Shown here: one piece after another, positions 25,370-29,962 of the stretch
Layout of the letters: every line of letters begins with the position of its first letter
Position numbering within the stretch: the stretch's first letter is position 1
Source: Pseudomonadota bacterium
GTDB lineage: Bacteria; Desulfobacterota; Desulfobulbia; Desulfobulbales; Desulfocapsaceae
Direction: 5' to 3'
DNA length: 64,000 nt
NCBI GenBank assembly: GCA_018817385.1
Contig: JAHIUA010000043.1
Span: forward strand, 1 to 64,000
The notes under the pieces: generated by a model
What the model was told of the DNA's origin: nothing
Database searches by the model: none
What the model saw: the letters and a program-made list of their open reading frames with translations, nothing else
Program-made: the position numbers and the translations under genes

Positions 25370-25941
25370 TTATAGCTGTTTAACGCCATCGTCGCTGAGG
25401 TACCGTTTGGCCTTGCGTTTCAATTTGGCATCAGCCTGTACTTTTTTGAAGAGGAAAGGGTAGCCTGCCCGGAACCAGACGATCTGCTCCGGGGCATATC
25501 CCCATTCGGTGATGGCGGCGAAAGTGGCATTGTAGCTGCGATGGCATTTCGGTCCCTGGCAGAAAAAGGCAATGGTTGCCTTGTCTTTGGCAATGCCTTT
25601 GTCGGCCAGGGCCTTATCCAGTGACTCTTGGGTCAGAGTGTTTTCCGGAAGGCCTTTTTTATTGTAAATGAGGAGAACAGCATCCTGGACGGTGCCTTTT
25701 TTGAAGAAGCTTTCCGGGCGAGTATCCACCCAGAGGATATTTTCACCCTCTTGCAGGTGGGTCACGGCCTCATCCTCATCCCATACATCTACTCCCCAGG
25801 GCAGTTTTTATAGGCGTTGGCCAGTTGATCCGCAGGGATTTTTCCCTTGTCCACCTCCTGCGCTACAAGTGGTGTCGACAGACAGAGACAAAAAATGGCC
25901 AAAATGGCGAGATGTACGAATTTGGAAAAGATTTTTGGCAT
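25370..25941 (-). pseudogene. Exported rhodanese-like protein, split by a one-base frameshift
   Basis: From ATG 25941, with a strong AGGAGG site, the frame encodes a signal peptide (HLAILAIFCLCLSTPLVAQE) and then KIPADQLANAYKN before running into a stop. In the -1 frame the protein continues LPWGVDVWDEDEAVTHLQEGENILWVDTRPES to the stop at 25370, with the rhodanese fold and a cysteine loop FFCQGPKCHRSYNA. The frames join at a run of five A at 25805-25809; six A would restore about 190 residues. This is either a real mutation, a sequencing error in a homopolymer, or less likely programmed slippage, since the site is not a canonical slippery heptamer. Rhodaneses move sulfane sulfur. Confidence 0.65.
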
Positions 25942-29569: not shown

Positions 29570-29962
29570 CTACTTTTCTTCCACAGGGAAATGAGCACGG
29601 AACCATTCGCGCCAGCCCCCTTTGAGAGCATAGACATCTGTGTAGCCCTGAGCAATAAGCTGTTGTGCCAGACTGGCACTGGTTGCCTCGTGCGGTCAGG
29701 CGCAGTAGAGGACCAGGGGGTTGTCTTTTGGATAGTGTTTGGACCATACTGCCAGCTGTTCTCCCGGAGCTCGGATAGCGCCCTGAATCTTGAATTCGCT
29801 GGCACTCCAGTCCCTTCCTGAGCGGACATCGAGTATGATCAGGTCTGGAGAGTCGAGTCTGGATTTGAGTTCCTCTATGCTCATGGTTGGAACATCACCA
29901 GCCAGTGCCGGGAGAGCGGAAGCGACGAGAAAGAATGCGAGGAGGACGAAGAGCTTTTTCAT
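29570..29962 (-). CDS. Exported rhodanese-like selenoprotein (in-frame UGA as selenocysteine)
   Basis: From ATG 29962 (AAGGAG eight bases upstream) comes a signal peptide (LFVLLAFFLVASALPALA), then a rhodanese domain: TMSIEELKSRLDS, LIILDVRSGRDW and GAIRAPGEQL. The active-site loop reads LYCA, then TGA at 29698-29696, then PHEATSASLAQQL and GYTDVYALKGGWREWF, to a TAG at 29570. Homologues read CxCPNEATSAR-like loops with cysteine at the UGA position, so selenocysteine 89 replaces the catalytic cysteine; total length is 130 residues. A SECIS-like hairpin follows the UGA. It probably handles sulfane sulfur or a related persulfide in the periplasm. It is 12 bases after a permease gene on the same strand. 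Without readthrough the protein would lack its active site. Confidence 0.85.
29665..29698 (-). promoter_or_regulatory. Bacterial SECIS-like element for the rhodanese gene
   Basis: Twenty-two bases after the UGA comes a three-base loop GUC closed by the perfect six-pair stem GTGCCA / TGGCAC. The loop begins with guanine and the distance falls in the known 16-37 base window. Confidence 0.75.

Follow-up and report, generated by a model that had tools for sequence, protein, structure and literature searches.

Introduction

The closest described system is the selenocysteine (Sec)-containing rhodanese family NF041203 (rhodanese_LYCAU). The accessible part of a 2026 review (PMC13188914) catalogues it as 'Rhodanese-like domain-containing protein form 3', with a CxU motif and one Sec, and credits Zhang and Gladyshev 2005; a row for the same rhodanese form is present in the available section of PMC9312934, and the excerpt of PMC8318568 names a rhodanese-like domain among the Sec proteins of a marine deltaproteobacterium. 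As far as the text of the review was available, its account of the family mentions neither a permease partner nor members with Sec at both motif positions (UxU), and the literature passages at hand contain no activity or substrate for NF041203. Two further kinds of rhodanese invite comparison, namely the GlpE/PspE-type single-domain thiosulfate sulfurtransferases (PF00581) and the rhodanese/DsbD fusion-like protein TsoB (NF045694), which, according to the part of its description available, is likewise a selenoprotein with a rhodanese part. On the side of the transporters, the amino-acid transporters AdiC and BasC come closest to the permease described below.

For Desulfocapsa, the available passages of PMC3739170 call the first access to elemental sulfur for disproportionation enigmatic and count nine rhodanese-related sulfurtransferases with roles still to be investigated. 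The window analyzed here, i.e. the whole stretch of 64 000 nucleotides of DNA, probably belongs to the Desulfocapsa group; if so, a conserved and probably exported Sec rhodanese together with a permease would be a testable candidate for this access to sulfur.

A rhodanese gene with an in-frame UGA codon

On the minus strand of the window we found a frame of 130 residues (29962..29570) with a single in-frame TGA; translated with TGA as U, it reads MKKLFVLLAFFLVASALPALAGDVPTM...LYCA-U-PHEATSA...FPVEEK*. The motif codons are TGC GCC TGA (LYCAU, one Sec), and after the UGA at codon 89 another 41 codons follow before a TAA. The initial annotation had described the sequence LYCA-UGA-PHEATSA and the 41 further codons up to a normal stop, leaving the strand unstated; both are indeed seen on the minus strand, while the plus-strand frame at 29570-29962 reads differently. 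It had also called the protein exported, in agreement with a hydrophobic N-terminus ending in ALPALA-GD, which by eye looks like a signal peptide; from its sequence, the rhodanese is probably exported. All features of the locus are collected in Table 1.

Table 1. Features of the Sec rhodanese locus (positions refer to the window)
Feature	Position	Strand	Basis or remark
Sec rhodanese-like protein (predicted), 130 residues	29570..29962	-	translation, NF041203, PF00581; TAA at 29572-29570
UGA codon 89 (almost certainly Sec), second position of CxU	29696..29698	-	translation; TGA in relatives
TGC codon 87, conserved Cys of CxU; UGA in UxU relatives	29702..29704	-	translation, relatives
Presumed signal peptide MKKLFVLLAFFLVASALPALA	29900..29962	-	read by eye; hydrophobic N-termini in relatives
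bSECIS hairpin GUGCCA-GUC-UGGCAC	29665..29679	-	stem 16 nt, loop 22 nt after UGA
Shine-Dalgarno-like AAGGAG, overlaps permease stop codon	29971..29976	-	sequence reading
APC-superfamily permease (predicted), 413 residues	29975..31216	-	fold, profile match, adjacency; 12 nt upstream of rhodanese start

Conservation of the UGA codon and of the selenocysteine machinery

Searching 257 genomes of the class, we found 83 loci above the NF041203 cut-off in 68 genomes; the site of interest is TGA in 72 of these loci and Cys in the other 11. For 73 family sites the DNA itself was read, giving 62 sites with TGA and 11 with TGT or TGC (two rows of L028 were dropped as non-family, and sites sharing identical surroundings entered with a single count); this 62:11 ratio is not a frequency, since the 11 Cys loci were fetched completely and the Sec loci only in part, and 72:11 is to be used instead. 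In a sample of the phylum, a CxU pattern matched 82 sites spread over 65 of 395 genomes and its reversed control none. All of the 30 CxU sites that were read match the rhodanese profile and 28 of them have a perfect five-pair stem; several of the 30 score low, and the NF041203 cut-off is perhaps not reached by all. The nearest relatives of the window protein, G002 (89% identity) and G018 (85%), carry TGA at the same codon. As these relatives were assembled separately, it is unreasonable to assume that the TGA arose from a TGC or TGT by an error of sequencing or assembly, an explanation whose probability we regard as negligible.

The initial annotation had proposed a check for sel genes, and the genome of the window indeed contains selA, selB, selC (tRNA-Sec) and two selD genes, with the best match above the cut-off in each case. 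Across 40 genomes examined, selB was detected in 35: in 32 of the 33 that contain Sec or UxU forms (G569, with its weak UxU match, included), in all three with neither form above the cut-off, and in none of the four with Cys forms only (G152, G153, G155 and G156; 92, 69, 95 and 93% complete). G157, which is 89% complete, has Sec forms, yet no selB was found in it.

Two side observations concern the same genes. Both selD genes of the window's genome (L012 and L013) have an internal TGA each. At L091, L093, L096 and L097, a Sec-form gene is followed directly, on the same strand, by a Cys-form paralogue; these tandems possibly represent a selenium-replete/selenium-poor pair.

A covarying hairpin downstream of the UGA

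A six-pair hairpin had been placed 22 bases past the UGA by the initial annotation. The hairpin is there, although the distance needs correction: 22 nt separate the UGA from the loop, and the stem begins at 16 nt. According to the accessible part of PMC13188914, a bSECIS element has a loop of 3–9 nt with a G in the first two loop positions, an upper stem of 4–16 bp, a loop lying 16–37 nt past the UGA and a minimum free energy of -7.5 or lower. The 49-nt stretch starting at the UGA shows all of these properties (a 3-nt loop GUC, a stem of 6 bp and a distance of 22 nt), folding at -15 kcal/mol; the 15-nt hairpin alone reaches -7.2 kcal/mol, slightly short of the -7.5 of the model. Perfect six-pair hairpins with a three-base, G-first loop occur at 5 of 63985 positions of the window. 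As a single sequence the hairpin folds unexceptionally (z -1.53; 13 of 200 shuffles fold equally well or better), and the window has no match in Rfam at the gathering threshold.

Among relatives, the outer stem is complete with its five pairs in 60 of the 62 TGA members compared to none of the 11 Cys members, two of which have some stem of at least five pairs elsewhere in the stretch. Within the 62 TGA members (commonest residue per codon), third-base entropy amounts to 0–0.41 bits at codons +6 to +10, the location of the hairpin; the remaining codons that allow synonyms hold 0.68–1.95 bits. In addition, the synonymous third bases of a Ser AGY and an Ala GCR codon covary over 42 sites (T-A 21, C-G 19, T-G 2, C-A 0; Fisher p 9e-10, uncorrected for sequence relatedness). 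The patterns used to find these 42 sites specify the 5' arm of the stem alone, and two or more of the sites (the window's own and that of G009) also belong to the 62 TGA members. The G+C states of the AGY/GCR pair correlate with phi 0.91, compared to 0.54 or less for any other codon; base composition of the genomes does therefore not explain the covariation of the stem and was ruled out as its cause.

If the UGA were an ordinary stop, it would end a protein of 88 residues, with a decayed frame downstream, and a hairpin that folds no better than expected from a single sequence would be in line with this. However, the frame past the UGA is conserved up to the C-terminus in all 14 aligned relatives, each of the 73 family sites read has either TGA or a Cys codon, the hairpin covaries and the genome contains the Sec machinery. 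We thus consider termination at this codon highly improbable. On these comparative grounds codon 89 almost certainly encodes Sec, and the recoding put forward in the initial annotation gains the support of the TGA/Cys alternation, the covarying hairpin and the machinery.

Family membership, fold and the position of the catalytic cysteine

The window protein reaches 180.3 bits on NF041203 (cut-off 115) and covers profile positions 5–126 of 126. By this near whole-length match, and with the LYCAU motif and one Sec in common, it is a member of this known selenoprotein family, and no difference was found in the protein itself. Since the family is listed as a CxU selenoprotein in the available text of PMC13188914, the kind of selenoprotein is already known. 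A rhodanese domain, as the initial annotation had it, is recognized by PF00581 (4.9e-15; 56.3 bits compared to a gathering cut-off of 22.2). The AlphaFold2 model (mean pLDDT 83.2) has the rhodanese fold, with Z scores of 16.8 for 3tp9 and 15.1 for GlpE, and 6mxv ranks first in a Foldseek search with this model.

Although the fold is common to GlpE/PspE-type sulfurtransferases, the window protein remains below the cut-off of NF001195 (37.9 versus 102 bits), and its loop is two residues longer in the GlpE alignment and carries the CxU pair. TsoB, with which it shares the rhodanese part and the presence of Sec, differs by its DsbD part, which is absent here, and the score on NF045694 is 26.8 bits compared to a cut-off of 805.

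According to the initial annotation, the UGA replaces the persulfide-carrying cysteine. The active-site loop reads C87-A-U89-P-H-E-A-T-S, and in helix-anchored alignments with 6mxv and GlpE residue 89 coincides with the catalytic Cys, in agreement with the claim, and serine follows six residues further. However, the CxU motif keeps Cys87, and other alignments favour this residue. In profile alignments to 24 ordinary rhodanese stretches (20 loci, related genomes), 21 rows have their Cys aligned with Cys87, an outcome towards which the profile is biased by its own Cys column; one row (L144) has it at residue 89 alone and two rows at neither position, while in L147 both positions are Cys. The alignment with domain 3 of YnjE also puts the catalytic Cys on Cys87, and in the AlphaFold2 model Cys87 comes immediately after strand 83–86. 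Hence, the canonical catalytic cysteine may be Cys87, two residues upstream of Sec. Of the 62 Sec members, 60 retain this Cys; the exceptions are L103 with Sec and L106 with Gly (GSU) at this position, so that Cys87 is not quite invariant.

A permease gene recurs upstream of the Sec forms

The rhodanese gene is preceded by that of a permease (Table 1), and the two are likely to be part of the same operon. The permease matches the fold of AdiC (5j4n; E 3.2e-11) and BasC (9h76) with a query TM of 0.76–0.77, and a profile match to 6f2g is weak (6.1e-5). It thus has the overall APC fold in common with these amino-acid transporters, but sequence identity is only 14–19% and, in contrast to them, a significant match to Pfam is missing for the window permease. 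Among nine aligned permeases, one (not the window's) matches PF13520. In NCBIfam, too, the match is weak (TIGR00905; 22.9 compared to a cut-off of 409). With no significant Pfam and only a weak NCBIfam match, any substrate is a guess; tentatively, a thiol or an amino-acid partner could be carried.

The initial annotation had paired the rhodanese with the permease, and this pairing is found again in relatives. A profile search of the 257 class genomes yielded 45 permease hits (E 1e-20 or better), 40 of them immediately preceding, in the same orientation, a Sec rhodanese above the cut-off; the profile was built from Sec-adjacent permeases and favours finding those. The five non-adjacent hits comprise two at or near a contig end (G134, G026) and three with far lower scores (G047, G245 and G179; E 1e-26 to 1e-28), which may be other transporters. 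Counted by locus, 40 of 72 Sec loci have the permease immediately upstream, compared to 0 of 11 Cys loci. The 32 Sec loci without an adjacent permease were counted regardless of contig ends, and some perhaps lack it for want of contig; they indicate that the permease is not essential to the enzyme and that the link is recurrent rather than obligatory. In L089–L108 and L149–L158, which comprise UxU, Cys and distant Sec loci with about 1.5–2 kb on each side, one permease hit was obtained, by the Sec form in L102. In the open-access literature, available in partial texts, no link between a permease and a Sec rhodanese was found in print; the recurrent pairing and the UxU relatives described below look new.

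The preference of the permease for Sec forms (40/72 versus 0/11) is also what a selenium-handling protein might show, i.e. one that carries selenide or selenosulfide in the periplasm, next to a permease that moves a seleno-amino acid. However, Cys forms exist in four genomes without detected selB, so the rhodanese fold seems to have a job independent of selenium, and we regard a role in selenium handling as improbable.

Relatives with two UGA codons

With a pattern that has TGA at both motif positions we found 12 sites in 11 of the 395 phylum genomes, belonging to 7 genera, and no match for the control. An additional site, L103 (G089), reads YUAU and lies outside these 12; altogether the UxU sites are L149–L158, L189, L190 and L103. 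If G089 is counted and L157 is not, the genera number seven; they are eight if the weak match L157 is counted. Each of the 12 sites matches the rhodanese profile (11 at 1e-38 or better, L157 at 4.3e-10), a perfect five-pair stem is present in all except L157, and selB occurs in all 11 genomes as well as in G089. Typed with Cys for Sec, the proteins of L151 and L158 reach 183.3 and 122.8 bits on NF041203; these scores are above the cut-off and place both in the family, the other UxU proteins having been tested with our in-house rhodanese profile only. A UxU rhodanese was not found in print in the open-access literature, as represented by partial texts.

In two of the UxU relatives, L154 and L155, the frame of the rhodanese domain runs on into a segment containing eight CxxCH motifs. 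For L154, this cytochrome part is related to hydroxylamine oxidoreductase (HAO; PF13447 1.8e-23, 6h5l 9e-22) and reaches no NCBIfam cut-off. The UxU relatives raise the question of how one bacterial SECIS could serve two UGAs with just one codon between them: the loop of the hairpin lies about 22 and 28 nt past them, and a single hairpin would direct the insertion of two Sec, one residue apart.

Possible function of the selenocysteine rhodanese

Computation shows the recoding signature, the family and the fold of the protein as well as the gene order and the conservation of this order; export, redox chemistry, substrate and permease cargo are inferred. We propose, with a probability of roughly 0.6 for the explanation as a whole, that the locus encodes an exported NF041203 Sec rhodanese whose Cys-Sec pair acts on sulfane sulfur, in association with an APC permease. 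The protein is likely to serve as a periplasmic sulfane-sulfur carrier or persulfide oxidoreductase. The hairpin, 16 nt past codon 89, would direct SelB and tRNA-Sec to insert Sec at this codon, and the product would act in the periplasmic space of a bacterium that metabolises sulfur, together with the APC-type permease, likely made from the same mRNA. Sec89 and Cys87 would form a reactive pair, one of them taking up sulfane sulfur as Se-S or S-S from polysulfide, thiosulfate or a low-molecular persulfide, and the other one resolving this bond by releasing sulfide or passing the sulfur on; the resulting Cys-Sec selenenylsulfide would then be reset by a periplasmic reductant. The permease might plausibly move a thiol or amino-acid co-substrate such as cyst(e)ine or its persulfide. 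The continuation of the UxU relatives L154 and L155 into an eight-CxxCH cytochrome speaks for export and for a role in redox chemistry.

The same cytochrome fusion could as well point to an enzyme that uses the rhodanese scaffold for peroxidase or thiol-disulfide type oxidoreductase activity, with Cys87-Sec89 as its CxU couple and sulfane sulfur not as the main substrate. A paired CxU or UxU motif in place of a lone Sec fits this alternative, and so does the statement, in the available part of PMC9312934, that most predicted selenoproteins resemble thiol-based oxidoreductases. On the other hand, the rhodanese fold and the probably sulfur-cycling lineage favour sulfane sulfur. We therefore consider such an oxidoreductase rather unlikely and hold sulfane sulfur to be probably the substrate of the Sec rhodanese.

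The sulfane-sulfur reading might be extended to the whole series of CxC, CxU and UxU forms. The series, with a double-Sec rhodanese capable of forming a diselenide, the permease and the cytochromes, could constitute a selenium-based periplasmic redox system for sulfane sulfur, a suggestion that we make with some reserve. In such a system the CxU protein of the window would be one step; electrons would be exchanged with cytochromes, in keeping with the fusion of the UxU domain to an octaheme HAO-like cytochrome in two genomes, and in the lineage of the window the CxU form would be coupled to the APC permease.

Other rhodaneses in the window and its genome

The window contains a second, Cys-only rhodanese at 25370-25765 on the minus strand, with a CQGPKCHRS loop and 28.4 bits on PF00581. 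It lies about 4 kb downstream of the Sec rhodanese, and relatives of it are present in 7 of the 30 stretches compared, the window included. Elsewhere in the same genome, L146 (G000:C80:73200-74600) comprises three rhodanese-like stretches, the first with the loop CGGPTC, and an in-frame TGA.
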